A stretch of 64,000 nt of DNA from Sipunculus nudus (lineage: Eukaryota; Annelida; Sipuncula; Golfingiida; Sipunculidae): the NCBI GenBank assembly GCA_026874595.1, contig CM049322.1, forward strand, positions 41,288,840 to 41,352,839, in the 5' to 3' direction. The notes below the pieces were generated by a model. The model saw only the letters and a list, made by a program, of their open reading frames with translations. It did no database searches and had not been told where the DNA came from. The translations under genes were made by a program, and so were the position numbers. Below are positions 3,105 through 56,938 of the stretch, one piece after another (positions within the stretch are counted from its first letter, which is position 1; every line of letters begins with the position of its first letter).

Positions 3105-3110
3105 TTTATT
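3105..3110 (-). terminator. putative poly(A) signal of the 3.2-5.3 kb receptor gene
   Basis: AATAAA on the minus strand, 56 bases past the stop codon of the receptor gene at 3166. Spacing is plausible for a poly(A) signal, but the hexamer is frequent by chance in AT-rich DNA. Confidence 0.4.
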
Positions 3111-3165
3111 TTGGTGTAAAAGAGCTCCATTTCCTTTGTGTAAACGCGTTGCAGTTACTACACGT

Positions 3166-5306
3166 TTAGATTGATTTCGGTTGACATTCAGTTTTCACTC
3201 TCACTACAGAGCATGTTTGCGATCCCACAATGCCTGGTTCATCATACGACAGTGGCTCCATGTAATATGGACTTGTTTCTTCTACATTAGAGTTCTGCTC
3301 GTTTCTGAAGCACAAGCAGTTTATATTGCTCTGCAACTTATCAGTTTCGTGAAGGGTCGGTAAATCGACGCATTCCTGTTGGCTCGGCATTTCCGGCTGA
3401 GTGACGTCATGGTATACATGCGCAGAGCCCGGGTTTAACTGTCTACGGCGGGTCCTATCCGCCTGATCAACAGCTTGTAAAGGCACGAGCGGCAGAGGGC
3501 GCTGCGATAGGCGACGTCTCCGTCGGTGTTTACGGTACATGGCCGAACACTTCCGATGAGAACAACCCACCACCATGGAGATAACCAACACTGCCAGGCC
3601 GATCACGAACCCTATCATCCAGAGATTGGTCTGAAAATATGCGTATTAACTAGATAAATAAATTAAACTTAAAAAAATATATCTAACAGAGCATAAAGTA
3701 CATGTACTTGGATCGTTTATCCAGAATAATATCATCCAAATCGGTCTTGGCGTTCAATTCATTTGAAGCAGATTAGAATTTCTTCCCCCTAAACAAGAGT
3801 ATTTGAGAATCAATAGGACTGACAATATTATAGCGAGAGGTGTGTTTACAAGATTGGGGTAAACCAATGATTTGTGAAGTATCCCTACATTAACATTAAG
3901 TAATAATAATAATAATAATAATATAATAATAATAATAAAAAAATAATAAAAATATTTATATAACATTATATAAAATTATATTGATGACAGATCTACAAGT
4001 TGCAAGAGTACCACTATACCTGATATTCAATACGTTTAGCAGTCTCCTCCGTTCGAGTGACGACCAGTTCAGTTCTCCAGGTCTCATGTTTATTTGTAAC
4101 GGATACACTGGAGAAAACGCCGCTATTTATAACAGAGAAGCTCGTGACGTCACTGGTTTCGATCTTTATTGTCTCATAGTATGATAACAATTCTTTCACA
4201 TGGGTTTGGCCCATGGTGCTGGATGCAACACAATGGTACTCGGAGAGCCCTTTCATTGGATCTACGGTCACTTTTACAGAGTGCGATTCTAAGTCCTGAA
4301 TGGTTTTCTCACTTTTCTGAGTTGCAGACCACAGCGTTACAATAGGAGGAGGAATCCCCTCCCCAACACAGATGACTTTCTCTTTGTTCATACTTATGTC
4401 TGCAGTTGGTACATCGCATATTTCCAGTTGATTTAAATAACCAATTGCAGTTTTCCACTTTTGCTTGTCCAGAACTACTTTCAGGCTACTAAATCCTAAT
4501 TCCTGCTTTCTTTCGACTACACTACTTAAATTCTCATAAATTTCTTTATAGGCCTGTGCACATTCAAAATGTATTTTGCACTGCTGAAAATCTACAGGAA
4601 TTGTGCCGTTTCGGCAACCGCAATAAATTGGATTGTTTCTCAGGACAATGGAAAATGTGCAATGAGAAAATAAAGGAATCAGAGGGATTTGGTTATTTTC
4701 TAGATTTATAGATGACATAAATGGCGGCCATGTTGTGTCCTCATAAATCGCGCGCAGGTGATTGTGGGATAGCTGCAAGTGAGACAGTTCCTTCATCTGT
4801 TGAAAGTAGCTGACACTTAGGTGATGTAATTTGTTCCTACTGAGATCTAAATACTGCAGTTGATTAAGCCCCCTGAACATATCGACCGTAACATTTTGTA
4901 GCAAATTCTCTGACAGAGATAGCATTCGTGCCGAATTCAGATCCTGAAAGGCACCCGGTCTGACCTCTGTAATCTTGTTTCTATCAAGTCTCACCACGCT
5001 TGCATTTAAGAGACTCTTAAATTGCGAAGAATTCATCGTACCAATATCATTATCTGTCATTGTCAGAGTTGTTATGTACGACACTTCTTGAAAAGCATTT
5101 TCATCAATTGAACGTATATTGCAGTTAATAAGACTCAGCTTCTTGGAAGCAGAAATCTTCCTCAGGAAATACTGGTTTAAATGTCCGGTCCAGGCGCTGG
5201 AGTCTCTGACAAAACACTTTGCCTCGGTGTACAGTTCCCTGTTAAACTCAAGTACTACCAGCAATGATAAATATGTACAAAATGCACGCAGCATTGCTAT
5301 TGACAT
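3166..5306 (-). CDS. LRR-Ig single-pass receptor with SH3/SH2-motif tail (gene 1)
   Basis: Two exons: 5306-4020 and 3630-3166, joined by a phase-0 intron of 389 bp (donor CAG|GTATAG, acceptor TTTTCAG). The product is 583 residues. Order: signal peptide (1 to about 28); N-terminal block CFVRDSSAWTGHL from Cys31; about seven LRRs (55-225); LRR C-cap with Cys229, 231, 243 and 249; one Ig-like domain (303-380, Cys313 and Cys359, with YHCVAS); Ser/Thr stalk; membrane helix (about 433-451); basic juxtamembrane stretch; RPLPLVP (473-479, an RxxPxxP class I SH3 ligand); Y502HDV; CLC at 534-536; Y552MEP and Y558DEP. It lacks the second N-terminal Cys (Arg instead) and the YDEI end found in paralogues, and is the most diverged of the complete genes. 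By architecture it is a surface recognition or adhesion receptor signalling through tyrosine motifs. The ligand is unknown. Confidence 0.87.
3899..3950. repeat. (TAA)n microsatellite in gene 1 intron
   Basis: Imperfect TAA/ATA trinucleotide run inside the intron between the ectodomain and tail exons. Confidence 0.85.
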
Positions 5307-7030
5307 GACTGAAATATCATAGATTATAAAGTTGGGGAAAATCTTGATAATCTACAAATGTGCATGACCGCGAGCTTCCTGCCGACTTTTCTGCACGTCC
5401 TTACTATTGTAACATAACCTGCATATGATGTTATCAAAATTATTTGATTACGTCTTTGTTTCAGGTGGAAAAACCACCTATTACCACAGCCAGAGGATCG
5501 CCACCTTCTGATATAGTATTAATGATGTCTTCTATGACGGGAAAATTTGCTCATTCAGCAACCACATTTTTCATTCTTACAATCCACTGAAGCGCCAGCT
5601 TCAATAACTCTAACATGAAAGCCATGGCGTAATATTTCTGTACATAAAAACCCAAATATTAACTAAGTTCTTTCACATCTGAACATTTATCATATAGCTA
5701 TAAAGAACAATTCTGACAATTCAGCATAGTCATCATAATAGTAAAAACAACAGTTGGGATTGATTTACTGCAGACATCAATACATTAACGCGCTTGGCGA
5801 ATTTGCAACGCTTGGTGTATATACAGTCTATGTTTATAGAGCTTCTATTTTTGTTCTTATTTATAAGCAGAATGCAATTATCCCTGCTGTGTAATAGTGA
5901 TAATCACGTCTATCTCGGGAAAGTCATGTTTTAAGGGGATAATTACCAGTTTAGTTACCGGGAGTACAGTTCTCAAATTAGGTTTTAACTGGTCTGATCC
6001 TTGTTCCCTATTTAAAGAAAATAATAACATATTTTTTTATTGGATAATAAATAGGAAAATTATTGAAACTTAACCACTAGCTAGCTTTTGACTATTATAA
6101 TTATTACTTATATCAGTAATCTCTCACCGTACCTCCGTTTTTTATGGTAAATATTGACACTGGGCCTTCCTTTAATAATACAAGGGTTTGCGCATTAATT
6201 ATATCATATATTATATCATTATACAAAGTACACGCTCTGTTCCCAGAGAACTATGTTTCCTATAAATCAAAGTCGGTAACTTATCAGAACGTATTCTACT
6301 AACTCTCCCGATCCGTCTCATATTACTTCATTTAGTTGTAAAAGTTATCGCTATATGTCAGTTTGTGCGGATTTTACAAAGACCAAACAAAACATTCCAT
6401 GTCTGAGTAATTTAAATTTGCCCACCCACCTACCTTTGGAAAAGAATTTGTGTGATTTCTTGCTTCCTCTGTGTATATATTAATTATCTAAAGGTAATTC
6501 TGGGTATGAAAAGTTCTTATAAGGCCCCCGTGAAGGATGTATGAACTTGTTTATCAACAACATGTTTGTAAACACAGCAATGTTGACAAACGGGGAAAAA
6601 ACCATGTAACCTAAAGTGATAGGTTGCATTTATGCAGAGGTAGAAAGATCCCTTGTTGCAAAACGCCATTTGCAAAGCTCTTGCTCATCTTACTCGTCAC
6701 CAGATGCCCTTGTTGAATTTGTTTTATTTTGGTGGGCCCCAGATATTATAAACATGTTGATATAAACAAAAAAAGCAGCCTCTGTGCTGTGATATCCACG
6801 TTTTCTAGCCTATTTTTATGTAAGCTCCAAGGGATTACCTTTAGTTTATAAAGGTCACATGGGTGATTGGGCCCCTTTAACCGATGTGGTTTTCTCCGGG
6901 TTCTCTGATTTTCTTCACCTCTAGACACTACCTAACGTCACCTACCCACCCATGCAGAGCGGCTTGTATTAATATAATAATTGTATGTACAATCCATGTA
7001 AAACTAGACATTTCTTGGCACCGCCGGTGC
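5307..7030. other. upstream of gene 1, no gene seen
   Basis: AT-rich intergenic sequence. No open frame with family signatures, no tandem array and no clear promoter motif conserved with the paralogues were seen. Confidence 0.4.
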
Positions 7031-7034
7031 CAGA

Positions 7035-8999
7035 GTATCCCCAGACATAGTAGCCCCCCTTTAAGAATAGACCCCCATTTTTAGCAGCATATACTGACAC
7101 TTTGCATATTTATTGTTTCTTCCATCTAACAATCCCCAATCTTGTTGAAGATGTTGGTCCTGTGACCTTGATCTTTTAAAAGACGTGTCCCCTGACCTTG
7201 ACCTTTGACCTCATGACCCCAAAATCAATTTGGGTCTCGCTTTTCTAATGGGACATATGCAAGTCAAGTTTGAAATCTATACATCAATAAAGCAGGAATT
7301 ATCACCCAGAAAGTAATTTTTGGACAGATGGCTCCTGTGACCTTCACCTTTGACCTTGTGACCTCAAAACTGATAGTGTTCTTCCTCTCTTGGCAGGAGA
7401 ACTATATGTGCAAGATGAAAGATCTGAGATGAATTGTTTGGCTGAAAATGCATCCACAATCTTTATAAAGAGGTTTCCTGTGACCTTGACCTTTGACCTC
7501 ATGACCCCAAAATCAATTTGGGTCTTGCTTTTCCAGTGGGACATATACAAGTCAAGTTTGAAATCCATACATCAATAAAAGCAGGAATTATTATCCAGAA
7601 ACTAATTTTTGGACAGATGGCTCCTGTGACCTTCACCTTTGACCATGTGAGCTCAAAATTGATAGGGGTCTTCCACTCGTGGCAGGTAAACTCTACGTGC
7701 AAGATGAAAGATCTGAGATGAATTGTTTGGCTGAAAAGGCATCCACATCTTTTTAAAGATGTGTCCTGTGACCTTGACCTTTGACCTCATGACCCCAAAA
7801 TCAATTTTGGTCTTGCTTTTCCAATGGGACATATACAAGTCAAGTATGAAATCATACATCAATAAAAGCAGGAATTATCATCCAGAACTAATTTTTGGAC
7901 AGATGGCTCCTGTGACCTTCACCTTTGACATTGTGACCTCAAAATTGATAGGGGTTTTCAATCTTGGCAGGAGAACTATATGTGCAAGATGAAAGATCTG
8001 AGATGAATTGTATGGCTGAAAATGCATCCACAATCTTTTTAAAGATGTGTCCTGTGACCTTGACCTTTGACCTCATGACCCCAAAATCAATTTGGGTCTT
8101 GCTTTTCCAATGGGACATATACAAGTCAAGTATGAAATCCATACAGCAAGAAAAGCTGGAATTATCATCCAGAAACAAATTTTTGGACAGATAGCTCCTG
8201 TGGCCTTGACCTTTGACCTTGTGATCCAAAATTTATATGGATCATCCACTATTGGCAAGTGAGCTATATATTCAAGATGGAAGACCTAGGATGAAAGTTT
8301 GGCTTAAAATGCATCCACAGTATCTTTAAAAATGCCAGTCCATTGACCTTGACCTTTGACCTCATGACCCTAGAACCTATAGGGTTCTTACTTCAGTTGT
8401 GGGCCATACATAAGTCATGTTTAAAATCCATATGGCTATCAACACTGGAGATATCATAAGAGGTGTGTGATTTTCACCATATATGGCAATATTCAAGGTC
8501 AAGGCCACTATCATAGGAAAGGTCATGACCCCAATTTAAATAAACATCATCCCATAACCCATACCTATGTATATGCATAATATAAAAGAAATCTGTCCAT
8601 TAGTTTTTGACTTATAATGCTCACAGTACTGTAAGGTGGCAATTTTGGGGGTATTAAACGGCAAGAAAACAAGTAAAGAATAATAGGTGGCGCCACCAGT
8701 TTCTGGAACATGACAACCCTATCCATGATCTTCCATCAACCTGATTTTGGGATAAATCCATGCAAGATTTCTTCAGATATTAAAGAAATTGTGTGATTTT
8801 CCCCAAAATTGGACCTATTCAAGGTCAAGGACACTCTCCTAGGAAAGGTCATGACCTCATTTTAAATAGGCGTCGTCCTCTTACCCAAGTTTGGTAAAGT
8901 TCCGTGAAATATTTTTTGGGTTATCGCGCCAGCAAGATTTATATGCGGCGGCGGGACCGGTATGAAAACATAGTATCCCCCGACTTTGTCTGGGGATAC
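7035..8999. repeat. five-unit ~288-bp tandem repeat with DR1-like half-site motifs, flanked by inverted 13-mers
   Basis: Units of about 288 bp repeat from roughly 7150 to 8430. Each contains the same pair of blocks: one with CCTTGACCTTTGACCTCATGA, the other with CTTCACCTTTGACC in most units. Perfect TGACCTTTGACCT occurs at 7199, 7487, 7775, 8061 and 8350 (spacing 286-289) and again at 8207. On the minus strand this is AGGTCAAAGGTCA, the textbook DR1 nuclear-receptor element. From 8430 to 8940 related but non-tandem sequence carries AAGGTCAAGG and GGTCATGACC. GTATCCCCAGACA at 7035-7047 recurs inverted at 8987-8999, and the right copy also folds with GTATCCCCCGAC into a 12-bp stem with a TTT loop. 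The open frames across the array on both strands are by-products of the repeat. Confidence 0.85.
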
Positions 9000-9000
9000 A

Positions 9001-11346
9001 ATAAATATTGTTTATTAGTTTAAGATTACTAAACAAAGAATAAGACCGTCTCAGCTTTTTCTGACTGCAACCATACCTGCTTTTGGAATCATTAAAACTC
9101 TAAAAGCTTTCGAAGTATCACTCGACCCAATTCTCTCATATACTTACACTAGATATTGTTAAACATGAATATTATTAGCAACCTCACAACTTTGAAAGCA
9201 ACTTTGGCATCAGATAAATTAACCCAAGCCTGTTAGACTCATGTATTGCAAGCAATTATTCAATTTAGAAAGCAGCTTTGTCAACTAGCAGAGAGGTGGT
9301 CAGGCTTCAAACACGCAAACTGTTAGCAACTTTTCAACCTTAAAGGAGATTAGGACCCCCCGGCTTTGAAACAAGCGACTTGCTAGCAATTTTGTCGAAC
9401 ACGCAAGTTGCTTGCAAGTGTGACAGCCGGGAGTTCCTCTCCGACGAATTTCGAAGTTTGCTTCGAAGTTGCTTAATTGCTAACATTACGTTACCTCTAC
9501 CGGTTGGCAGTGTTGCTCCCAGATTTGTAAAATTCCTATCTCTTTATGTGTATGAAAGCCTGGAGGTCCTCTCTACTAAGTTAGTGCAGTACTGAGAATT
9601 AACATGCACGAAAATCAGATTGACCACGTATATGTAACCATAGTGCAGGATATAGATGGTTGGGGGGGGGGGGGGGGGGGGGGGGGGGAGGTCCATGATT
9701 TCAGCACCTGCGTTATAATAGTACTCTGATTATTTTATTCAGCAATTATCCTGATGAACAGAGCTCCCCTCTAGAAAATTGCAAGTCAATCCAAGAAAAA
9801 CTTCAAAACTTCCTGATATACTAACTTACTCTTAAACACAATTTGGGATAGGATGACTATATCTGTTACCCTGTCTTACTTTTACAGCACAAGAGATATT
9901 GTTAATATTATTGGTTTGGTAGAGACAAATGCTTATGTAGAATGATATTATCTATAAGAGTTAGAAACCTCTCTGATTCCATATTTTACTAATAAGTGTC
10001 CGGCTGTCAGGCGATTTCTTGCTATGAATTATGGCTAAGGATGTTTGGATTGTTGCAACGTCTTTCATTATATTCATTGCACAGGTTGGTTCCACTCTGT
10101 TATAAACGTCCCCTTGGCTTGTTGTTAGCAAGGGCTTGTTTTACAATAAGGCTCAAAACAGACACTCAATAAAAGATAACTGGGACACTTATGCATGTAA
10201 ACGTGCCATCATAAACTCAAACTACGTACATTTGATGCAGGTATTGTATAAAATACAACATACGGCGTTGACCCGGATCCCCTATCATCCTTACAATGTA
10301 CGGCAATTTCCCCGAACCCCTATCTCACCCAAATGTCCTACAATGGCCCAGAACTTCTATAAAAAAACAACGTATACACGGCAATAGCCCAGAATTCTTT
10401 CCCGCCAGTGATACATGAGAGATAAATCGATGACATAAATTATTTTTAACGCTGGATGTCATCTTTATCCAGTGTAAACAACAAAGGAACAAATAAAACA
10501 CTTCATTGAAAAATACCGATGGCGTCACAGAACAAAACATTATGGAAAATATATAAACAAAACTTAATTCTAAAATAATATACAGTGTCCCACGGTACTC
10601 AAGCATATATTTCTACCCTGCACATGTCCACACTACGGTGTGGAATGTGAACGATTCCCCCACGAGTCTTTTGATTCTTCCCCATAAACCTAGAATGAAA
10701 TCAGTAATTGTTTTAGTTTCGCAGCCTACTCCCAAATCTGATTTAACCAGTCCTTATACTACAAAATTTCTTTGATATAAATAAGTTTTTATTTGGTCAC
10801 CGAAAAACAACCAAAGACACAAAAACAGGTAACATTAGGCCTCATTCATACAAAACTGAGCAACTTCTTGTTAAATGGTTTACACAATACTCTCTGATAA
10901 TATGTAGTCTCATTTACTGAATGTTGTGGTTCACTAAAATCTGATGGTTGCTCCCAGGACCGGCAGGTGCGATAGACACCGGGCCTGGGTGACACCAGGA
11001 TACAAAATAATATGATAGGAAGCGAGAGCTACCACCATGTCAGGTAGTCCCAAACCAAAAATGAACTCTGAAGATGTACATAATTAGATTAAGAATTTAT
11101 AAGGGGGCATAAAAAATGGAGACGGTTACCTCCACCAAAAAAGAAAAAAACAATCTGGTGACTGAGGTGAATTCACCTTTGATACAAGTGATCATAAAAT
11201 AAAAGGAGGCTGAAAAATCAAGTTTTAGATCATAATATCAATTCAGGGATAAAGAAATAATTAAACAAAGAATCAAACTGATGGCATAAAAAATTAATGA
11301 TCCTATACATAGATCTCACATCGAGAATTAATTAAATTGAGAGTTG
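9001..11346. other. intergenic, no gene seen; 27-base G tract
   Basis: A run of 27 G lies at 9662-9688 (possible G-quadruplex or assembly-prone site). A short block near 10960-11130 (GGTGCGATAGA, GTGTCACC-like and GGAAGCGA segments) resembles a block at about 34930-35060, so it is a dispersed repeat. No gene is supported. Confidence 0.4.
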
Positions 11347-13396
11347 TTAAATTTCGGTCTCTTCAACTTCTGCCTCTTCAACCGGCAAGTCATAATTATC
11401 AGACAGTCTCGCAGAAGAGGGTTCCTCGTATCCTATAGGTTCTATATATTCTGTTTGAACCTCTGGCTGCTCAACTATAGTGTCTATATGTTTTATACAT
11501 GGGCAGCATTTCGCCTCCTTCTTTTCTGCTAGTTTACTTGATACTGCGTCATGTCTTATTTCCATGACGTCCGCATAGATGTGCGTCGACTCACGTCTAA
11601 TTCTTCTGCGTTTACTTTCAGCGTAGTCAATAGCATGCACAGGAACCAGAGGCAGAGGGCGCTGGCGTCTCCGACATGAGTCTAAGGTCCCCGAGCACTT
11701 CCGGTACGAGCAATAGACAACAGCAGCGATCACCAGGATCCCGAGGCCGATCAGAACGCCACCTATCAGGAATAATTCCTGAAATAATGATTCAACCAAA
11801 GAATATCTTAACATTTACAGTAGATATATGTATCGGTAATAAATCTGTAACTGGAGCTCCTATATGATACTAACATTGTTGCCATTCTAAGTATTGTTTA
11901 GTTTTTAAATGCTGTGAATCGCTCTCCTATAGTGAAATAAAGGTTATGTCATCAAGAAACCGATCAGACACAGAGGCTAACTCTACTGTTTCACTTAAGG
12001 TAATAATTAAAGGTGTATTCGTGTGCTTGAGATGAATATTTTTTCCAGCGTCCGTATTTGCTGAAAACTGTACAGCACATAACACATAACCCGTGTAAAC
12101 ACTAACCCGATCTCCTAAGTGCCCAGTTGAATCCGTTGCCTTTGTACCGACCATTGTGATAATGTTGAAGGGAGAGGTACGACGGTCCTCGTGACGTGTT
12201 CGCGAAATGCCTCCTGGGATACCAGAGCTGTCCGTTGGCTTTGGTGATGTCCATGGCGGCCATGTCAATACCTGAGTCACTTTCCCGAGGTAGTTAACCG
12301 CTAGGCATGAATAACTGGAAGACACTTTTCTGATCTCCACAGAGACCCTCACCGACTCATTATTTGAATCAAGTCCGACTTTGTTGCTCTTTTGTACAGG
12401 AGACGATAAAGTCACATTAGGAGCTGGGTTTCCACTTCCTGTGCAAATCACGTTATCGTTCTCTATATGCATTGCGATCTCAGGGTAACTACAATAATCC
12501 ATATTGTTATTGGATATTATAAATCTCTCCCATACCGTTTTATTTTGTTTTACTTCAGGATAGGTGAAGCCCAAAATATGTTGTTTATCATCCAACGAAC
12601 TTGAGTTCGGAAGATTTGTCATTTCTTTTGGTCCTTGGCATTGGAAGTGCATTTTACAGTCCTCCATTTTCTCAATAAGAAGTGTAATATTCCGACAACC
12701 GCAATACAGAGGATTGTCTCTCATATCCAGTGAAAAGTTGCAGTGATTAAAAGGAGGAATAAGAGAAAAAAGATTACTGTTTAACTCCATGGAATTCAGT
12801 CCAGGTGGCCACGATGTATCTTCTTCTAGACCTCGCAAAGCATTATGGGACAACCGAATGCAGAACACAGACTGTAACCCTTGCAAACTGCTTGAGCTTA
12901 CGTAGCTTATTTTATTGTAGCTAAGGTCTAAAAACCTGAGATGTGTTAAACCAATGAACATTTCTGCCTTTATAAATTCCAGCAGATTTCCAGATAAAGA
13001 CAGAATTTCAGCTGCATGAAGATCTTGCATTGCACCTGTTTCAATCTTCTTTATGTTGTTCCTACTGAGGTCAATATCTGTTACATATTTCAGGCCATCA
13101 AACTGAGATGTGTTGAGTGACCATATATTATTATCGGTCATCTTAAATATCTTCACATATGATTGTTTCAGGAATGAGTCTTTCTTAATGGTAATAATAC
13201 TACAGTTTTTAAGATTTAGATTTGGCGATGCTGAAACATCGCTTAAAAATTCCGGACCAAGGTGGCCATCCCAGCCTTTGAAGTCGCAAACGAAACATCT
13301 GGCCTTAATGCAGCATAGACGGGGTTCGAAAAATGATATCACAACCAGAAATAAATACATTGTGATACACTTTTTGCAATGACCAGTTACCTTCAT
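11347..13396 (-). CDS. LRR-Ig single-pass receptor with SH3/SH2-motif tail (gene 2)
   Basis: Exons 13396-12107 and 11778-11347, with a phase-0 intron of 328 bp (donor CGG|GTTAGT, acceptor ATTTCAG). Product 573 residues. I start at the ATG at 13396 because it gives a signal peptide aligned with the paralogues (MKV...). The frame stays open upstream to a TTG near 13486 that is unlikely to be used. Order: signal peptide; CFVCDFKGWDGHL; about seven LRRs including the EDTSWPP insert; LRR C-cap (NPLYCGC); Ig-like domain ending YSCLAVNYLG; a Thr/Ser/Pro-rich stalk; membrane helix (about 431-453); RPLPLVP at 470-476; Y498ADV; CCPC at 521-524; Y541IEP, Y547EEP and Y559DLP. If the intron were retained, the frame would read 60 further residues with no family similarity, which supports splicing. 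Role by analogy: surface recognition receptor signalling through tyrosine motifs. Confidence 0.87.
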
Positions 13397-13487
13397 GATG
13401 CTTGTCCTATTACAATAATGTGTGCCTACCGTAAGCATATGTTCCCGTAACTGATAAAAAAGGTTAAACTCATATACCAGACTCAAA

Positions 13488-13494
13488 TTTTATA
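13488..13494 (-). promoter_or_regulatory. possible TATA box of gene 2
   Basis: TATAAAA on the minus strand, about 92 bases upstream of the chosen ATG, which leaves room for a 5' UTR of roughly 60 bases. A single short motif in AT-rich DNA. Confidence 0.3.
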
Positions 13495-13532
13495 AAGCGT
13501 TTCATATAAGAAGGCCCATATAACGCGTTCCA

Positions 13533-14561: not shown

Positions 14562-17500
14562 TCAAATTTCATCATAAACTTCTGTTTCTATATCCGGACT
14601 GTTATCAAGCTCTGACTCCTCGCATACAGTTGCTATGGTTACAGACCCCTCGTGACCAAAGGGAGCGTTGCCTATGGTGACAGGTTCTTCGTAACCAAGG
14701 GGATCAATATATTCTTCTGGTGGTGAATGAGAACCCTCAGATATTATATCAGACTTTGTAATGCAAGTACAACAGTTTTTATCTCTGTTTGTCGTAGGTT
14801 CACCACGACTGATTCCGGGGTCAGGGCTGTACATATCGGGCTCTGTAGGATCAGCGTAGATATGGACTGACCGTCTTAAAGTTGCTTTCCTGCGTTTCCC
14901 TTCTGTGTAGTCAATGGCAACGAGTGGAACTATGGGTAAAGGGCGTCTTGGTAACTGACGTTTCCTAAACCATTCCCGACAAGTCTCCAGACATTTCTTG
15001 TATAGACAGTAAACACAAAGGGACAACAATAAGGTTGCAAATCCTGCAACTGCCCCGCCGATCCAGACTTTTATCTGCAAGATGCAAAATTCATTATTGT
15101 ATTAATAATTATAAAAAATTACTACTGTCTGCATATGTAAGCCTATATATCATATGCAGCTCTAATATAGAAGTTATGCAAAGAGATGGCGACCCAGTCA
15201 CCAGACTCACTGCATTCTATATGTCACAAGCCTTGGTCCTTCATGGCTGACATGCTAACAAAGCAACTGGCCCTCCACTTTAATCAGCTAGTATGGAAAA
15301 TAGCTTTTACACCTACAATGGCATGTGTAAGGCCTATATCACATTTCGCAGTTTTGATAAAAAATAAATTCATCGATATAGATAGGTTTCTCTAATGGAG
15401 GTTGACATATTGTCTGTCCCTAGTATGAACCTTCCATTGTATTTGTTTACTTGATATTCATTTCTAATAAAACTCAAAACAAGACGACCAGAGGTCGCGC
15501 GCTCTCCGGAAATGGCGTAGAGATAGAAATTATTGTGGGTAATGACGTAGAGGAAGAAAATGAGCCATAGTTGGTATAGACAGGACCAAAATTAACAAAG
15601 TTATGAGGAAAATAAAATGTTGATGTGTTTTGATGACCTTGAACTTGACCTTTGACCTATTTAGACAATACACATAGAACTTCCAGAAAGCCTAAAGATA
15701 TACGAAATATGTAAGTTACAAAGTGACACAGGAAAACCGAGGCCTGCAGAATGTTATATGTTAGCCAGATGAACCATCAGCAAGCAGGCGAATTCGAGAA
15801 CAGCTGACAAACAGACAGACATACTGACAAAGTGACCCAAAGGGGTGGACAGTGGACTAGACCAGGTTATGAAGAAGACAAAGAGGAAGAATATGAAGCC
15901 AATGTTTGTAATAAAAGAACCAATATTGAATAAGTAATGAGGAAAATAAGACTTTAACATATTTTCATGACCCTGACCTTTGACCTATATAAATAATATA
16001 TATATATATATGTCTTCAAGAAATCATTCCGATATGCAATATGCGTAAGTTATAAAGTGATTTCTGCAAAGCTATGGCCTGTAGAATACTATATGTAAGA
16101 CGCAAGAACCAACCAGCAGGCGAAATAGAGGACAACTGAAAAAAAGACAGACATATTGACAAAGTGACACAAGGTTGACACCTAATGGGTTAACTAGGTT
16201 ATGAAGAAGACCCGGGGAAAGAAAATAAACTACAGATTATGTAATTGAGGTGCATAATTTTGGAGATATGGCCAAAATATAATATGATGTGGAGGTTTGA
16301 GTGCAGCGCCCCCTATTGGTCATATCTCGAAAATAAAAAAGCACTTTCGAGATATCAGTATAAAACGTAAGATGTACTAGTTTCAAAATGATTCCTGCAA
16401 AACTGTGACCTGTAGAATGCTAATTGTAAGAAGAATGTACCAGTAAGAAAGCGACATTGAGGACAAGTGACAGACAGACATACTGACAAAGCGACACAAG
16501 ATTGAGACCAGTTGACTAGACCCAGTTATGGAGAAGACCTAGGGAATAAAATGAGCCTAGGCCTGTGAGGATACGACAAAAATTGACGAAGTTATGACAA
16601 AAAAAGAATTTCGTCTTGATCTTTGACTTATATTGAATAAAATCAACAGGCTTTGGGGACTTTTGTTTTTCTATCAAATGTGTCAGTTTTAAAGCGATCG
16701 CTGCAAAAATGTGGTCAGAAAAGTGGGGACAGAAAAATAGACAAACAAACAAACAGACAAACACACATACAGAACTGACTAACAAGATTTTAGGCAAACA
16801 ATTAAAATATATGATCAGAATAAAACCCATTTTTAAAATCGTAAAAGGAATATTACGTGTTGCTTTACTACCTGACTGTTCAAGCCGTTTTCAGCATTGG
16901 GCGTGGTCGGTCGTTTTCCCTGTGTCATCTGACCATCAATAGAGGGGCTTGTAGAATGATGGGCATAGGTCACGGTAGGTGTGACAGTTGATACCTTTGC
17001 GTGATGGCCACTCGTGAAGCTTTTGCGAATATGGTCTGTTCCGATACCATTGGAAGCTTGACATGTATAACTAGCGGTTCCTTTGATAGGCGTCATTGAA
17101 ACAATCAATCTTTGCTCTTGTAAAGGCCCTCCATCCTTCTTATATTCTCCATGAGCTGTTACCAAAGTAACTACCGGAGGGGGGTTTCCGTTTCCGGTAC
17201 AAATGATTACGTCATCATCTTGTTTTAGATCCACAATCGGAGAACGACACATAGTTGACCCATTCAGAATGTTGAGGAATTCTTCCCATATTATATTCTG
17301 TGTCGCTTCATAATATGTAAACGTTTGATGGACTTTGCTCTCCAGAGAATTTATATGACCGAGGTTTTTCATTACTTTAGGGCCATTGCATGCAAAGTAG
17401 ATCTTACATTTAAGCAGTGGACTTAACTTATCTGAGGGATACTTGCATCCGCAGTAGAGAGGATTTCCAGTGAGCTGTATTGAAAATGCACAGTGCTGTA

Positions 17501-18119
17501 TTATAGGAAACACTGTCATACTGTTATTGCTGAAATCTATGAACCTTACCTCCTTGGGCCAAGAATCATCCTCTTGTATGGACAAAATCACATTGCCAGC
17601 TAGAAGTAGTACCAATAACTTTTGCAAATTTTTAAAGTGACTGGTTCTGAAATGGGTCAGTCGATTATGACTCAAGTCCAAATATTGCAAGTTGTCCAGA
17701 TTCCGAAAGGTCTTGTTTGAAAGTCTTTGTATCTGATTACTGTTAAGTAAGATCAGTTCAACGCTTTCCAGACCATTAAATGCTCCATCTTGTATTAGAC
17801 GAATCTTATTTCTATCTAAGAATATTTTTTGTGCTCCCCTCCAATCTTTGAACAAAGAAGTGTTTAAACTTTCAATCAGGTTGCCAGTAAGTATCAGTTT
17901 TTTAGTGTTTTTCAGGTGTTCAAATGATCCTGTGTTAATAGTTCGGATATCACATGATCCAAGTTTAACATTTGGCAAGGCAGACATTCCTTGCAAAAAG
18001 CTCTGATCTAAATGTCCACTCCAGTTCTGGTATACACAAATGGAACATTTGTCTGGAAGACAGCAATATTGCAAATCAAGATGGAGGAAAATTACTATGA
18101 AGTTGAATACCACTTTCAT
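14562..18119 (-). CDS. LRR-Ig single-pass receptor, YDEI-tail subfamily (gene 3)
   Basis: Exons 18119-16872 and 15074-14562 with a phase-0 intron of 1797 bp (donor CAG|GTAGTA, acceptor CTTGCAG). Product 586 residues. The ATG at 18119 is conserved in position with gene 5; the open frame further upstream begins at a GTG. Order: signal peptide; CSICVYQNWSGHL (Cys25, Cys28); LRR1 with GSCDI; about seven LRRs with the EDDSWP insert; LRR C-cap NPLYCGCKYP; Ig-like domain (ICTGNGNPPP ... YTCQASNGIGT); Thr/Ser/His stalk; membrane helix (about 420-440); RPLPIVP at 460-466; Y489ADP; CCTC at 517-520; Y538IDP; Y544EEP; C-terminal Y583DEI. YxxP fits Crk-type and YDEI fits Src-type SH2 preferences, so ligand-dependent tyrosine signalling is inferred. 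The intron is four times longer than in paralogues because of a repeat insertion. Confidence 0.88.
15540..16790. repeat. ~330-bp tandem repeat inserted in gene 3 intron
   Basis: Three to four diverged units of about 330 bp. The block GACAGACATACTGACAAAGTGAC recurs, with changes, near 15810, 16146 and 16470, and a GTTATGAGGAAAATAA-type block near 15600, 15930 and 16588. Units start with a TGACCTTTGACCT-type motif (perfect at 15646 and 15974, decayed near 16616), which links it to the 7.0-9.0 kb array. Paralogous introns lack all of this, so it inserted after the duplication or was lost elsewhere. At 16305-16320 there is AGCGCCCCCTATTGG, close to the CTCF core on the minus strand. Confidence 0.8.
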
Positions 18120-18209
18120 TGTCGCTTCGTGCACCCTTTATAACAGGAAGACACGCGAGCCCTCAATGCTTCCACATAAAATGAGTTAAACGAGGATGTA
18201 CACGGGAAT

Positions 18210-18222
18210 CTCTTTATATTTG
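18210..18222 (-). promoter_or_regulatory. conserved TATA-like element of gene 3
   Basis: CAAATATAAAGAG on the minus strand about 90 bases upstream of the ATG. It is identical in gene 5 (29628-29640) and sits in a conserved block followed by ATTCCCGTGTACATCCTCG here. Conservation between two diverged 5' flanks and the TATAAA core suggest the core promoter. Confidence 0.5.
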
Positions 18223-19179
18223 CTTTTCTTACGAATATAGGAACAGCCAAGAGGTATTCAAAGCATATACTATCATAATATATTGTTTTACATATTTGAG
18301 TATGATTAAATTAATGTATTGCCTGGTTAAATGTGAGTGTGGACGATTTTGTTAATTGTGCTAATCCTGCACAGTGCGAGATAATATACTTAAGGAACGT
18401 GTGTCCTTATATGCGAACCCATGGAATTTTCGGTCCCGTATACGTACATATTTGCACATGGCGGTATTTGTTTGAGACGAGTCTTTGTATATCAGGGAGA
18501 CAGGTACACGAGTACACTATGCTTACATTTACAAGTTTGCAAATAAAAATCTTTTTACATCTTCTTCATTTTTCCGTTACATGACGTTAAAGATATAATA
18601 TATGGAATATTTTCTTGGTCCACACTTAAAAGAAGTACCGAAAGAAAAGCAAATGCTGGTTTAACGAATTGACTCCAATAGTTATAGATAATTGATCGGT
18701 GGCATGTTTCATATGTGTGTTTAGAGGTTACTGCATGGGTGCAAAGTGTTTGATTTTTATAATATTTAATCTAATTGCAGATTCTACTATGTTTCAATAT
18801 AAAATTAATAAAATACAAAATAAAAGTTTTAAAGAGATATGCAGTTTAATCATAAGATTGTAACAATCATCTACATGTTTTACTTCTACCAGCAGAATTG
18901 AACACATCCTTCAATACCTTAACTCCGTATACTGCACAAGCACACACAAATACATTTATATATATATATTTAAATGTTTTAAATATTAAATAGTATACAT
19001 TTAAGCTTATGTATCAAAATTAACGTTTTTCTTTCTTTAAAATATATGTGAGTGATATCCAGTTTTTGGACAATTATAAAAAAATATAAAGCACAAAAAT
19101 ATTACAGCTGCACTATACAGTACACGAAAGAGCGAGCTTCAGATAAAAATGAAAACGAAACAGGCAGAAGAGAGATTAG
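18223..19179. other. intergenic, no gene seen
   Basis: Upstream flank of gene 3. It shows patchy similarity to the flank of gene 5 (for example GGCATGTTTCATATGTG near 18701 against the segment near 30073). AT-rich, with a short TA run near 18957. No coding sequence. Confidence 0.45.
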
Positions 19180-20488
19180 TCAAATTTCATCATAAATCTC
19201 TACTTCTATTTCCGGACTTTTATCATGCTCTGACTCATCGTGTTATGTTGCTACGGTTGCAGGCCTTTTGTAACCAAGGGGATCACTTCGTTTGGTGACA
19301 TGTTCTTCGTTACCAAGGTGATCATTGTATTCTTTCGGTGGTGAATGAGAATCCTCAAATATATTATCCGATTCGGTAATGCAAGTACAAACGTTTTGAT
19401 CTTTGATGGTCTAAGGTTCACCACGATTGATTCCGCGGTCAGGGCCGTACAAATTGGGCTCTGTAGGATCATCTGTGTAGTCAATGGCAACGAGTGGAAC
19501 TATCGGTAATGGGCACCTTGGTAACTGACGTTTGCTAAACCAGTCCCGATAAGTAGCCTTGCATTTTATGTATATACAGAAACACAAAGTGACAAAAATA
19601 AGGCTGCAAATCCGGCAACTGCCCCGCCTATCCAGACTTTTATCTGCAAGATGCACTATTCATAACTGTATTTATAATTTTTAAATGTTACTACTGTCTG
19701 CCTGTGTAGGGCTGTATATCATATCGAGCTGTAACATGAAATTTCTGTAAAAAGGTGACGGACCATCACCTGAAGCACTCTATTTTACCCTGTCACAAGC
19801 CTTGGTCATGTATGGCTTAAATACTGATAAAGCCAATTGTTTCATATAAACGAATACTTTTAACTCTTCTTGTTTTAATTAATTCCTACATTTAAAATTT
19901 TGCGCAATCATGATGAAAAATCAAATCGTGGATACAAGTAGGAATCCCCAGTTGAGGTTGACATCTTGCATGTCCTCATTACATACCTTCCTTATATCTC
20001 ACTACTTTATATTCATTTGCAATAAATGTTTAGATAAATATATATAATTGAAGGGATTAAAACGTTTTTTTTCATTATAAAATGAATATTTTGTGTTGCT
20101 TCACTACCTGACTATTCCATCCGTTTTCAGCAAGAGGTGTGGTCGGTCGTTTTCCCTGTGTCATCTGTCCAACAATGGAGGATGTAGAATGGAAGCTTGA
20201 CATGTATAATTAGCGGTTCCTCTGACAGGCGTCATACAAACACTCTTCTTAGATTCTACATGAGCTGTTATAAAAGTAACTACCCCAGGGGGGTTTCCGT
20301 TTCCAGTACAAATTAAAACTTCATCATCTTGTTTTAGATTTACAATCGGAGAACGACAAATAGTTGACCTATTCAGAATATTTAGGAATTCTTCCCAATT
20401 TTTATTCTGAGTCGCTTCATAATATGTAATCGTTTGATGAACTTTGCTCTCCGGAGAATTTATATGACCGAAGGTTTTTCATTACTTT
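19180..20488 (-). pseudogene. internally deleted LRR-Ig receptor pseudogene
   Basis: Remnants of both exons of the gene 3/gene 5 type. The tail exon (19643-19180) keeps the acceptor CTTGCAG and IKVWIGGAVAGF, but loses one base just after SLCV and so shifts frame. It also lacks about 17 codons between AIDYT and DPTEP, and has a stop after RGEP. The remaining sequence still ends with the IYDEI* codons. The ectodomain exon survives only as 20488-20108: the donor CAG|GTAG is intact, about 105 bases are missing in the stalk, and everything 5' of the LRR C-cap/Ig junction is gone. Just beyond, 20557-20640 resembles DNA located about 570-680 bases upstream of the gene 5 ATG. A deletion therefore fused the upstream flank to the Ig part and removed signal peptide and LRRs. 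Confidence 0.85.
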
Positions 20489-20638
20489 AGATGTTATTAA
20501 TTGCCTGCAAGTTTAATATACGCTTAAGCTTAATATCAAGGCTAATTTGTTAAAGGTGGTGATACAATATAAACTAGTTTCCTTGAGCGTTTACATACTT
20601 ATTGTAAATTGTGATGCGCGCTCAATAACAATAACAAT

Positions 20639-20640
<2 letters not shown>

Positions 20641-20698
<58 letters not shown>
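20641..20698. repeat. (TA)29 microsatellite
   Basis: Uninterrupted AT dinucleotide run directly abutting the tandem array that begins at 20701. Confidence 0.95.
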
Positions 20699-20700
<2 letters not shown>

Positions 20701-20702
<2 letters not shown>

Positions 20703-22920
20703 ACGGGGTGCACATAAAAGCGGACCGAACTATCTCGCTAGTGAAGCTTGCTTTGCTAGCGAAGCGGTTGGTTCGGCGGACTTGTCCGCCACCGACCTGG
20801 TTTCGACTCCCGGACCGGCCCAGGATTTTTCCACTCAACAATTTGCCTTCGTAACAAAAGGGGGCTCGTCCTAGAGGACGATAAAACTTTGTGGCCCAGG
20901 CTCAAAGCTCACCAAAGTGTGACTCCTGGGGAAAATTAGTCTTGTCCTAATAGCAGAACGCTCATAAGAGGGTGTGTGTTACGGGGAGCAAATAAAAGCG
21001 GACCGAACTGTCTCGCTATTGAAGCGGTAGGTTCGTCGGACTTGTGCGCTACCGACTTGGGTTCGAAACCGGGATCGGCCCAGGATTTTTCCCCTCAACA
21101 GTATGTCTTCGTTACAAAATGGGGGCTCGTCTAACGTGACGTTTAACTTTGTGGCCCAGGGAATAAGCTCACAAAAGTGTGACTCCTGGGGAAAATTAGT
21201 CTTGTTCTGATAGCAGAACGCTCTTAAAAGGGGGTGTGTTACGGGGAGCAAATAAAAGCGGACCGAACTGTCTCGCTATTGAAGCGGTAGGTTCGTCGGA
21301 CTTGTGCGCTACCGACTTGGGTTCGAAACCGGGATCGGCCCAGGATTTTTCCCCTCAACAGTATGTCTTCGTTACAAAATGGGGGCTCGTCTAACGTGAC
21401 GGTTAACTTTGTGGCCCATTGAATAAGCTCACAAAAGTGTGACTCCTGGGGAAAATTAGTCTTGTTCTGATAGCAGAACGCTCTTAAAAGGGGGTGTGTT
21501 ACGGGGTGCACATAAAAGCGAGCTGAACTGTCTCGCTAGTGAAGCTTGCTTTGCTAGCGAAGCGGTTGGTACGCCGGACTTGTGCGCCACCGACCTGGGT
21601 TCGACTCCCAGATCGGCCCAGGATTTTTCCACTCAACAATTTGCCTTCGTAACAAAAGGGGGCTCGTCCTAGAGGACGATAAAACTTTGTGGCCCAGGCT
21701 CAAAGCTCACCAAAGTGTGACTCCTGGGGAAAATTAGTCTTGTCCTAATAGCAGAACGCTCATAAGAGGGTGTGTGTTACGGGGAGCAAATAAAAGCGGA
21801 CCGAACTGTCTCGCTATTGAAGCGGTAGGTTCGTCGGACTTGTGCGCTACCGACTTGGGTTCGAAACCGGGATCGGCCCAGGATTTTTCCCCTCAACAAT
21901 ATGTCTTCGTTACAAAATGGGGGCTCGTCTAATGTGACGGTTAACTTTGTGGCCCAGGGAATAAGCTCACAAAAGTGTGACTCCTGGGGAAAATTAGTCT
22001 TGTTCTGATAGCAGAACGCTCTTAAAAGGGGGTGTGTTACGGGGTGCACATAAAAGCGAGCTGAACTGTCTCGCTAGTGAAGCTTGCTTTGCTAGCGAAG
22101 CGGTTGGTACGCCGGACTTGTGCGCCACCGACCTGGGTTCGACTCCCAGATCGGCCCAGGATTTTTCCACTCAACAATTTGCCTTCGTAACAAAAGGGGG
22201 CTGGTCCGGGAGGACGATAAAACTTTGTGGCCCAGGCTCAAAGCTCACCAAAGTGTGACTCCTGGGGGAAATTAGTCTTGTCCTAATAGCAGAACGCTCA
22301 TAAGAGGGTGTGTGTTACGGGGAGCAAATAAAAGCGGACCGACCTGACTCGCTATTGAAGCGGTAGGTTCGTCGGACTTGTGCGCTACCGACTTGGGTTC
22401 GAAACCGGGATCGGCCCAGGATTTTTCCCCTCAACAATATGTCTTCGTTACAAAATGGGGGTTCGTCTAACGTGACGGTTAACTTTGTGGCCAAGGGAAT
22501 AAGCTCACAAAAGTGTGACTCCTGGGGAAAATTAGTCTTGTTCTGATAGCAGAACGCTCTTAAAAGGGGGTGTGTTACGGGATGCACATAAAAGCGAGCT
22601 GAACTGTCTCGCTAGTGAAGCTTGCTTTGCTAGCGAAGCGGTTGGTACGCCGGACTTGTGCGCCACCGACCTGGGTTCGACTCCCAGATCGGCCCAGGAT
22701 TTTTCCACTCGTTTGCCTTCGTAACAAAAGGGGGCTGGTCCGGGAGGACGATAAAACTTTGTTGCCAAGGTTAAAGCTCACCAAAGTGTGACTCCTGGGG
22801 AAAATCAGTCTTGTTCTGATAGCAGAACGCTCTTAAGAGGGGGTGTGTTACGGGGTTCACAAAAAAGCGGCTAGCGAAGCTGTTGGTTCGCCGGACTTGT
22901 GCGCCACCGACCTGGGCTCT
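20701..22920. repeat. tandem array of 260/278-bp units with tRNA-like pol III boxes
   Basis: Units begin at TTACGGGG at 20701, 20979, 21239, 21499, 21777, 22037, 22315, 22575 (TTACGGGA) and 22848. Two types alternate: long (278 bp, GTGCACATAAAAG) and short (260 bp, GAGCAAATAAAAG), in the order L S S L S L S L and a broken last unit ending near 22920. In long units TAGCGAAGCGG (for example 21555-21565) fits a pol III A box. GGTTCGACTCC (21598-21608) is a perfect B box inside a perfect T-arm: CTGGG, a 7-base loop, CCCAG. About 65 bases later most units carry a short hairpin, CGTCC-TAGA-GGACG in long units and CGTC-TAACGT-GACG in short ones. The 90-codon minus-strand frames repeated in the short units are repeat by-products. 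Confidence 0.85.
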
Positions 22921-25900: not shown

Positions 25901-26080
25901 TTTATCTATGTTTAAAAAATATTTTGTTAGTTTGTTTCCTTCTGTATACCATTTACATTTACATATTACCATGGCAGCTGCCTTAACCTTTCTCAACAAA
26001 TTCTTTGTGTATTTACTGTAACTTCCGATCTTAATTTATCTGCAATACTGATCATTAAGTAATGTTGGTTTTGAGCTTTA

Positions 26081-26126
<46 letters not shown>

Positions 26127-26420
26127 GCTATAATGTTGTTATTATAATTTTTCTTTTTGTTGGTAGCAAATAAAGGGTTTCTTCTCTTATTTGGCATTTT
26201 AGTGTGTCCCATAATAGGGCTGAATTTGCATCTTTATTGTTCAATACTGTTTGATGTATACAACTTTCAATGTTGTTCAGTGATAAGTTCAGTTTCCAAT
26301 AGCCCGGTCCCCTTTTAAAATTACTTAAGCTTAACTTTATTTATATATCAACGAATCGTCTGTTTTTATATGCTGACTCAATGTCTGAGAAGTCTTTATA
26401 GTTACCTAGGCTTTCGCTTA
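22921..26420 (-). pseudogene. decayed non-LTR (LINE, L1/Tx1-like) retrotransposon, minus strand
   Basis: Fragments of one LINE ORF2 appear in order down the minus strand, in shifting frames. The endonuclease-RT linker GPGYWKLNLSLNN is near 26310, with LLWDTLKCQIREETL near 26200. The RT block TPGLDGFSADYY is near 25640, GVRQECPSSPYLFLLPSEIL near 25100 and the catalytic QYADD near 24985. The post-RT region, with LNIWATRITSLSGKNAVIK, is at 24737-24513. Remnant 3'-ORF sequence lies near 23581-23345. Only the last two pieces are open for more than 70 codons. Many stops and indels mark it as dead. The 5' end (AP-endonuclease) is missing or unrecognisable, and a (CT)n tract interrupts it at 26085-26124. 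Clade placement is by motif style only. Confidence 0.8.
26085..26124. repeat. (TC)20 microsatellite
   Basis: Perfect TC run inside the decayed LINE. Confidence 0.95.
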
Positions 26421-26439
26421 TTATAAATAATCTAACCCG

Positions 26440-27349
26440 GAGATGGCTGGACAGCGTTCATAGGTTAGTTATGCGAGCTCTGTGTTTCCTCTCTATACAT
26501 GTACCTACAGTTCTGTGGTATGATATATTCATTCATACATTTGAATAACTACCCTAACTCTTTCGAGGATGTTTACATATGAAACACTGTGAAACTCTTA
26601 TAGAGGAAAAGTAAATACCGTTAATAACTCTAATGGAAATTGAGCAGAATATGCCTACACGTATAATCGTTGCAAATATTTGCTAGAATGTTAACAGCTC
26701 CAAGGAAAGAATAAAATAATAATATAATCTAATATAAATTTGTCAGATCTACAACTGAAACTACAGTTTGTGCGGATAATTAAACAAAAGATATTAAAAT
26801 GGTAGTTTCGTCTTGATAAATGCTTGGATATGGCAATGCTAATGTCATGACATTACTTCCTGTTACTGCGTGAATAGCCATTAAACACATATTTGGGTAA
26901 AGAAAGACAATACCAATATATGTATCTATTATCTTCTTTTAACGGTATAACATTGTCTATCATCCACATTTATTATCACATCTCACAATCCCATTAATAA
27001 TTACAACTTCTATGTGGATAGGCTTATACCATTTGGCTGTGTTCAAACATGGGAGTTCGACTACGAATCCAAACTCTGTTCCCTTTGATAACACCCTTTA
27101 TACATGATATTGTATTATTATTTAATATATTTAATTAAAATATTGAACTGTATAATGGTCATAATATGTTAAATGCATTCAAGGTCACATTTGTCTCGGT
27201 CATCTATAGTTTCCGTTCATGAAAGTATATATCAGTGTTGCGGAGTAGCCAAAATTGGACGTGTAAGTTATAAAAATAATATATAGCCAAACAAGCTACA
27301 ACTACACGGTACACAAAAGAACAAGCTTTTAATAAAGAAGAAAGATCAG
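26440..27349. repeat. 3' flank of gene 5, duplicate of 13533-14561
   Basis: Starts at GAGATGGCTGGACAGCG and follows 13533-14561 block by block up to the stop codon of the receptor gene. The breakpoint near 26440 marks one edge of the segmental duplication that produced genes 3 and 5. No gene is seen in it. Confidence 0.75.
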
Positions 27350-29536
27350 TCAAATTTCATCATAAATCTCTACTTCTATATCTGGACTTGTATCAAGCTC
27401 TGAATCATCGTGTTCGGTTGCTTGGGTTACAGACCTCTCGTGGAAAAGGGGATCTTTAAGTGTTGTGACAGGTTCTTCGTAACCAAGGGGATCCATATAT
27501 TCTTCTGGTGGTAAATGAGAATCTTCAGATATTATATCCGACTTTGTAATGCAAGTACAACAGTTTTTATCTCTGGTTGTCTTAGGTTCTCCACGACTGA
27601 TTCCAGGGTCAGGGCTGTACATATCGGGCTCAGTAGGATCAGCGTAGATATGGGCTGACCGTCTTGAGGTTACTTTCCTGCGTTTCCCTTCTGTGTAGTC
27701 AATGGCAACGAGTGGAACCATCGGTAATGGGCGCCTTGGTAGCTGTCGTTTCCTAAACCATTCCCGACAGGACTCCAGACATTTCTTGTATACACAGAAC
27801 ACACACAGTAACAGAAATAAAGCTGTAAATCCGGCAACTGCCCCACCGATCCAAACTTTTATCTGCAAGTACCATATTCATAATTGCATTAATAAGTTAT
27901 AAAAGTCACTGCAGTCTAACTAAATAAGGCTATATATCATATCGAGCTCATAGAAATTCTGGGAAAAGATTACGACCTTCTTATTTCAACCCTCGGTCAT
28001 CTTTGGATAAAATACTGACAGAGCAGTTTTATCATATGAACGAATACTTATAATTTTTGTTGTTTGTTTACATTTTGCTTTTCTGTTTTATCGCAATTAT
28101 GATGAGAAAGCAATGCATCGACATAGATAACAAGCTCCAATGGAGGGTGACATTTGTATGGTGACTTTCTTTATATCTGCCTTTTTCCATATTCAATTAC
28201 AATTAATATTTAAATAAAAATATATAATTGATGGGATTTAAAAAAGTTTTTCTTATTGTAAAATGGCCATTAAGTGTTGCTGCACTACCTGACTTTTCCA
28301 GCCGTTTTCAGTACGAGGCGTGGTCGGTCGTGTTTCCTCTGTCGTCTGCTCAACAATAGAGGGACTTGTAGAATGATGGGCATAGGTCACGGTATGTGTG
28401 GTAGTTATTACTTTTGCGTGATGACCACTGGTGAAGCTTTGGTGAATATGGTGTGTGCCGATACCATTGGAAGCTTGACATGTATAATTAGCGGTTCCTT
28501 TGACTGGCTTCATATAAACACTCAAACTCTGCTCTTGTAAAGGCCCTCCATCTATCTTGAATTCTCCGTGAGCAGTTACCAAAGTAACTCCCGGAGGGGG
28601 GTTTCCGTTCCCGGTACAAATTATTGCGTCCTCATCTTGTTTTAGATTCACAATCGGAGAACGACAAATAGTTGACCCATTCAGAATGTTTAGGAATTTT
28701 TCCCATTTTTTATTCTGTGTAACGTCATAATATATAAACGATTGATAGACCTTGTTCTCCAGAGAATTTATATGACCGAGGTTTTCCATTTCTTTAGGGC
28801 CATCGCATGCAAAGTAGATCTTACATTTAAGCAGTGGACTTAACTTATCTGAGGGATACTTGCATCCGCAGTAGAGAGGATTTCCAGTGAGCTGTATTGA
28901 AAATGCACAGTGCTGTATTATAGGAAACACTGGTATACTGTTATTGCTGAAATCTATGAACTTTACCCCCTGGGGCCAGGAAGCATCTTCTTGTATAGAT
29001 ACAATCTCATTGCCATCTAGAAGTAGCACCAATATCCTCTTCAAATTCTTAAAATGACTGCACTTGAAATGAGTTAGTACATTATGACTTAGGTCCAAAT
29101 ATCGTAGGTTGTCCAAACCCTGAAAGGTCTTGTTAGAAAGTGTCCGTATCTGATTATTGTTAATTGATAGCACTTCAATGCTTTCTATACCATCAAATGC
29201 CCCATTGTGTATTAGACGGATGTTATTTTTATCTAAGAATAATTTTTTTGCTCCCCTCCAACCTTTGAACAAAGATGTGTTTAGACTGTCAATCAAGTTA
29301 CCAGTTAGTACCAGTCTTTCAGTGTTTTCCAGGTCTTTAAACGATCCTCTCTCTATGGTTCGGATATCACATGATTCAAGTCGGATATGGTGCAAGGCAG
29401 ATATTCCTCGCATAAAGCTGTGATCTAAATATCCACTCCAGTTTTGATATCCACAAAAGAAACACACCTCAGGAAGACAGCAATAATGAAAATCAAAATG
29501 GAGAAAAATTACCATGAAGCTGAATACCACTTTCAT
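27350..29536 (-). CDS. LRR-Ig single-pass receptor, YDEI-tail subfamily (gene 5)
   Basis: Exons 29536-28289 and 27862-27350, phase-0 intron of 426 bp (donor CAG|GTAGTG, acceptor CTTGCAG). Product 586 residues, the same length as gene 3. An in-frame ATG also occurs at 29584 and another between; I chose the ATG at 29536 (MKVVFSF) because it matches gene 3 and gives a clean signal peptide. Order: signal peptide; CFFCGYQNWSGYL; LRR1 with ESCDI; about seven LRRs with EDASWP; LRR C-cap NPLYCGCKYP; Ig-like domain (ICTGNGNPPP ... YTCQASNGIGT); stalk; membrane helix; RPLPMVP at 460-466; Y489ADP; CCTC at 517-520; Y538MDP; Y544EEP; Y583DEI. The N-terminal LRRs differ much more from gene 3 than the LRR C-cap and tail do. 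Role by architecture: tyrosine-signalling surface receptor of unknown ligand. Confidence 0.88.
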
Positions 29537-56894: not shown

Positions 56895-56938
56895 TTGGTG
56901 CCGAGACCAGGATTGAATTAGTTATAAAGAGAAAGAAG

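Follow-up and report, generated by a model that had tools for sequence, protein, structure and literature searches.

Four genes in a 64,000-nt stretch of the Sipunculus nudus genome (assembly GCA_026874595.1, contig CM049322.1, forward strand, positions 41,288,840 to 41,352,839; this whole stretch is termed the window) are predicted to encode single-pass receptors with leucine-rich repeats (LRR) and one immunoglobulin (Ig) domain, the tails of which combine an SH3 ligand with a spaced pair of YxxP motifs. Further members of the family were found elsewhere in the 1.43-Gb genome. The chances appear about evenly balanced that these proteins form a receptor family with a p130Cas-type scaffold function built into the tail. 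The p130Cas logic was invoked because the tail pairs an SH3 ligand with YxxP. In p130Cas the SH3 domain of Src docks on RPLPSPP, and the phosphorylated YxxP motifs recruit Crk and Nck (PMC2956669; here and below, citations refer to excerpts of the papers).

All four window genes (genes 1 to 4, Table 1) are predicted to consist of two exons, which are separated by a phase-0 GT-AG intron of 389, 328, 1797 and 426 nt, respectively. In each case exon 1 comprises the signal peptide, the LRRs, one Ig domain and a stalk, and exon 2 comprises the membrane segment and the tail. An initial annotation had described four complete two-exon LRR-Ig genes, and the open frames and splice signals verified both this description and its outer limits, position 3166 being the last base of the gene 1 stop codon and position 29536 the first base of the gene 4 ATG. 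Signal peptides and membrane segments were called as hydrophobic segments, with no dedicated predictor run. All four proteins have two such segments, one at the N-terminus and one just past the exon junction. Pfam LRR_8 was above the cut-off in nine of nine ectodomain or full frames. The Ig domain stayed below the Pfam cut-off in the sequence scans and was recognized in a structure model of gene 4 (Table 1). The exon 2 frames of the four genes had no Pfam match at an E-value of 0.1.

Genome-wide members were located by tail similarity (1,426,538,692 bases in 153 contigs), and the numbers of matches are lower bounds. The gene 3 tail yielded at least 14 matches at at least 13 loci, while the tails of a gene on contig C9 and of the gene on contig C7 yielded at least 11 and at least 13 matches, respectively, and the lists overlap. 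The members reside on four large contigs, C17 (which includes the window), C13, C7 and C9. Contig C17 harbors gene 0 with its tail just left of the window, genes 1 to 4, a decayed copy and a distant member at 43.33 Mb; gene 6 also belongs here and lies on the plus strand, about 21 kb beyond the right end of the window. Three tandem members, one of them with a stop, and a fragment are found on C13, one member on C7 and two on C9. Each of six intact paralogues is contained in a single frame (562, 568, 585, 599, 608 and 609 residues, measured between stops) that encodes the LRRs, the Ig domain, the membrane segment and the tail. Because these six paralogues read from the ectodomain through to the tail, the tail belongs to the receptor, as far as frames can tell. 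The initial annotation had named tail exons that are not spliced to the ectodomain as a finding that would speak against it, and the uninterrupted frames from LRR to tail answer this point. The predicted intron is a trait of the C17 array, in which genes 0 and 6 also have splice signals.

A tree built from 11 full proteins grouped the six genes of the C17 array at 90/90, and each of the pairs on C9 and C13 at 100. The deeper branching order of the family is unsure, because trees of the ectodomain only and of the tail only did not recover the C17 array as a group. The array has grown by tandem duplication, with decay. In the decayed copy the arginine of the SH3 ligand and the spaced YxxP pair are gone, while the terminal YDEI is kept and the splice signals are visible. 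The membrane segment of gene 6 is split by an insertion with perfect inverted arms of 29 nt and 1,072 nt between them (positions 3594-4723 of locus L028, C17), and this gene is probably broken. Gene 0 has a tail that exceeds the others by about 100 residues and contains two PPEYIEP copies and extra tyrosines (positions 3043-3888 of locus L025), which gives the impression of a multiplied docking part. The tail end of C9a, a member on C9, is repeated directly downstream with 86-87% identity (positions 9140-9304 of locus L036).

The tails of 12 members were aligned, and eight of them come from outside the window genes that had been used to name the motifs, so that they constituted an external test. 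In the four window tails the motifs named initially were present as described. From the membrane onwards the order is a class I SH3 ligand, a tyrosine, a double cysteine and the spaced YxxP pair. All 12 tails contain RPLPx[VLI]P and Y..P..Y..P (the latter as YLSPSKYEEP in gene 0), and ten contain the tighter form Y.[DEQ]P..Y.[DE]P. Yx[DE]P was likewise present in 12/12 (strict YxDP in 7/12), as was an aligned membrane-near tyrosine followed by E, A, H or D, and CC was present in 11/12. The proposal that the genes are real paralogues for LRR-Ig-membrane proteins in which the docking tail is conserved was supported, and the retention of the tail in every aligned member agrees with the earlier view that the proteins are not decoys. 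YxxM and YxN were found in one tail each.

For a test of column conservation the close copies gene 4 and C9b were omitted, which left ten lineages and 99 well-filled columns. The tails of these lineages are 21-53% identical (median 30). Conservation in at least eight of the ten lineages was observed for 17 of 26 motif columns versus 2 of 73 other tail columns (Fisher test, 8e-11). When each tail was shuffled 5,000 times, Y..P..Y..P arose in 2 to 21 shuffles and RPLPx[VL]P, for which 11 tails were tested, in one at most. When the four window tails were shuffled 20,000 times each, the observed count was reached in 0.05-0.19% for RxLPx[VILP]P, in 0.005-0.045% for Yx[DE][VP] and in 0.2-6% for YxxP. 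Synonymous change was saturated, with no estimate obtained, in five of the six window gene pairs. Because synonymous sites are saturated between the older genes, the agreement of the tails is attributed to selection; judged from these alignments, the SH3 ligand and the spaced YxxP pair are the part kept by selection and not a product of recent copying.

Several steps can be envisaged for a receptor with such a tail. The LRRs and the single Ig domain would lie outside the cell, as predicted from sequence and models, and ligand binding or cell contact would cluster the receptors. RPLPx[VLI]P, which fits the class I form [R/K]xxPxxP, would then dock a Src-family kinase or another SH3 protein, and the tyrosines would be phosphorylated. 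A class I ligand in a solved complex of the Fyn SH3 domain is PPRPLPVAPG (PMC4877006). Crk-type SH2 adaptors (at pYxDP and pYxxP) and Nck-type SH2 adaptors could bind subsequently and steer actin towards adhesion, engulfment or guidance; pYXXP and pYXDP/L have been named as Crk motifs (PMC4841779). A Cbl-type DxYSxxP site could contribute down-regulation in genes 0, 3, 4 and 6. As a weak guess, the double cysteine may be a site of palmitoylation. The arrangement suggests that contact on the outside could be relayed to the machinery of cell movement or uptake.

A number of observations weigh against a Cas-like docking tail. Many SH3 domains bind RxxPxxP. The recruitment of the other loci by tail similarity favors agreement, so that the sharing of motifs is partly built in, and the CxC cluster alone is not unusual (13-22% of 20,000 shuffles per tail). 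The ratio of nonsynonymous to synonymous changes (dN/dS) between genes 3 and 4 was about 0.55 (0.40-0.81) for the ectodomain and 0.36 (0.23-0.63) for the exon 2 part, and these intervals overlap. YDEI, the strongest Src-SH2 site, terminates only 2/12 tails, those of the sister genes 3 and 4, and additionally the decayed copy. It is not a family feature, and its initial designation as a defining feature, and hence the specific claim about Src SH2 domains, was not supported. The initial description of the tail held for the SH3 ligand and YxxP and had overlooked the Cbl-like DxYSxxP, which is found in four of the 12 tails (DIYSPEP in gene 0, DMYSPDP in genes 3 and 4, DVYSEEP in gene 6). All of these sites have Asp at position -2, whereas a paper that gives the older motif form as (D/N)XpY(S/T)XXP attributes importance to Asn at -2 or to Arg at -1 (PMC2943896).

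The alternative that survives best, with a probability somewhat short of even, concerns the biology and is compatible with the docking mechanism. The anatomy would be the same, while the job would be cell-cell adhesion or neuronal wiring, comparable to SALM, LINGO, Islr2/Linx or Kekkon, and the tail would tune adhesion instead of serving the recognition of microbes. The behavior of the array points the other way: a tandem arrangement, copies that are decayed or interrupted and a stretch resembling gene conversion are usual for recognition families, although they are no proof; the LRR matches are generic. The stretch in question comprises 128 identical nt that genes 3 and 4 share in their LRR-cap part (within 16872-18119 and 28289-29536), while their LRRs are about 80-84% identical. 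Such an identity was reached in 0 of 20,000 permutations, and a test with synonymous sites only gave P 0.0017. This stretch suggests gene conversion between genes 3 and 4, which is probable within the C17 array. For the short LRR-cap and stalk segments of the two genes dN/dS was 1.03 and 1.17, on few sites.

It is unlikely, though it deserves consideration, that the tail has partners outside a Src-Crk axis. The SH3 site could serve p85, Abl, cortactin or others, and the tyrosine and C-terminal sites could act in sorting or PDZ binding. The class I form alone names no SH3 partner, and ten of the 12 tails end with I, V or L, five of them in agreement with [ST]x[VIL]. However, the tail ends otherwise differ, NPxY was found in 0/12 tails, and a YxxP pair with fixed spacing in every tail is more in keeping with a docking pair than with sorting signals.

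Slightly less probable still is distant orthology to a characterized LRR-Ig receptor of known function (of the Kekkon/LRRC24, LRIG, Trk or IGLR-2 type), from which the tail would have diverged. One Ig domain after the LRRs is also the arrangement of IGLR-2 and Kekkon, and the relatives by sequence that have a solved structure include LRIG1. LRIG has three Ig domains, whereas here the single one is separated from the membrane segment by a stalk of only about 50 residues (genes 3 and 4), and LRIG was rejected on this basis. Among the exon 2 and full frames scanned no tyrosine kinase, TIR or SH3 domain was matched by Pfam (for the kinase, in four of four exon 2 frames and three of three full single frames), so that Trk and the Toll-like receptors were rejected as well. 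SALM/LRFN proteins carry an FN3 domain between Ig and membrane. FN3 had no Pfam match in nine frames, and this absence is weak because even the Ig domain scored below the cut-off. Relics, with motifs surviving in non-functional or non-expressed copies, are hardly credible: the decayed copy, the stop in one C13 copy and the split gene 6 would fit, but 11 of the 12 aligned members look intact, the motif columns are strongly conserved, and genes 3 and 4 have a dN/dS below 1.

Table 1. Family members and their parts in the window
Feature	Position	Strand	Remarks
Gene 1 exon 1: signal peptide, LRR, one Ig, stalk	4020..5306	-	open frame, splice donor, Pfam LRR_8
Gene 1 exon 2: membrane segment, tail with RPLPLVP, VYHDV, NCLC, YYMEPLSYDEP	3166..3630	-	
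Gene 2 exon 1	12107..13396	-	
Gene 2 exon 2: membrane segment, tail with RPLPLVP, IYADV, CCPC, YIEPIGYEEP, YDLP	11347..11778	-	
Gene 3 exon 1	16872..18119	-	
Gene 3 exon 2: membrane segment, tail with RPLPIVP, IYADP, DMYSPDP, CCTC, YIDPLGYEEP, YDEI end	14562..15074	-	
Gene 3 RPLPIVP codons (SH3-ligand form)	14925..14945	-	
Gene 4 exon 1	28289..29536	-	including structure model
Gene 4 exon 2: membrane segment, tail with RPLPMVP, IYADP, DMYSPDP, CCTC, YMDPLGYEEP, YDEI end	27350..27862	-	
Gene 4 Ig domain	28421..28675	-	model confidence (predicted local distance difference test, pLDDT) 91.7; best structural matches are Ig domains
Decayed copy, partial ectodomain	20108..20478	-	splice donor still visible
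Decayed copy, tail	19183..19643	-	two in-frame stops and a frame change
Gene 0 (sixth gene), exon 1 start, N-terminus	1..229	-	remainder left of the window

The window also contains two tandem arrays. Beside the decayed copy, units of about 260 bp with GGTTCGAAACCC, a tRNA-like B box, extend from 20761 to 22870, and four units of 288 bp with TGACCTTGACCTTTGACCT runs lie between genes 1 and 2 (7171-8370). On the plus strand an exon of a major facilitator superfamily transporter, most similar to monocarboxylate transporters (38517-39209), a retroelement integrase (Integrase_H2C2, rve; 49623-50402) and, as a separate element, BEL/Pao-type retroelement frames with DUF1759, RVT_1, Peptidase_A17, an integrase zinc finger and DUF5641 (56771-62328) were found.

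Scallop and oyster LRRIG proteins have been described. Tandem or expanded LRR and Ig families are also on record for oysters (PMC9646362, PMC4346834). The tail reported here was not found in the excerpts of these two papers or of PMC2996935, PMC11999971 and PMC5877582, nor was the architecture in those of the first two. No receptor with this tail was found in searches of an open-access library, the scope of which excluded subscription journals and animal proteomes. It is tempting to speculate, although this is doubtful, that an old and undescribed family links a recognition ectodomain with a Cas-like tail and thereby has an activating route to Src and Crk/Nck actin signaling that dispenses with TIR, kinase, ITAM and a separate scaffold, that its arrays turn over like an immune recognition system, and that part of one branch has a Cbl-type off-switch. 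The tail is short and has few conserved sites, and six single-frame genes can be cloned from genomic DNA, so that the docking hypothesis is directly testable with peptides and chimeras.

The LRR and Ig domains, the signal peptide and the single membrane segment place the architecture in the LRR_Ig class of extracellular LRR proteins. The members of this class (SALM/LRFN, LINGO, LRIG, Kekkon/LRRC24; PMC2235866) likewise have an LRR and Ig ectodomain and one membrane segment, while the present family has one Ig, no other matched domain and an RPLPx[VLI]P plus Y..P..Y..P tail without Pfam match. IGLR-2 of Caenorhabditis elegans, which is needed for host defence, also comprises LRR, Ig and a membrane segment (PMC7734252). 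Amphioxus FrLRR is an invertebrate LRR receptor tied to the SH2/SH3 adaptor Grb2 and to phagocytosis, but it has a folate-receptor domain, a predicted glycosylphosphatidylinositol anchor and no cytoplasmic tail (PMC10199209). Receptors with immunoreceptor tyrosine-based activation or inhibition motifs (ITAM, ITIM) share tyrosine docking sites for SH2 proteins. As had been proposed initially, this class could be ruled out by motif, with ITAM and the related switch motif (ITSM) in 0/12 tails each and an ITIM-like motif in one (gene 6). The closest parallel is p130Cas/BCAR1, which shares the RPLP-type SH3 ligand and the repeated YxxP that are present in all 12 tails, and differs in being a cytosolic scaffold with its own N-terminal SH3 domain and 15 YxxP (PMC2956669). 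Membership was ruled out by the LRR ectodomain, the membrane segment and the missing SH3 match in the frames scanned. In the S. nudus family the motifs reside in a receptor tail with the SH3 ligand first and 2 to 4 YxxP, behind an LRR ectodomain and a membrane segment; if the proposed mechanism is true, the scaffold is part of the receptor itself in a family of adhesion-type or phagocytic receptors.

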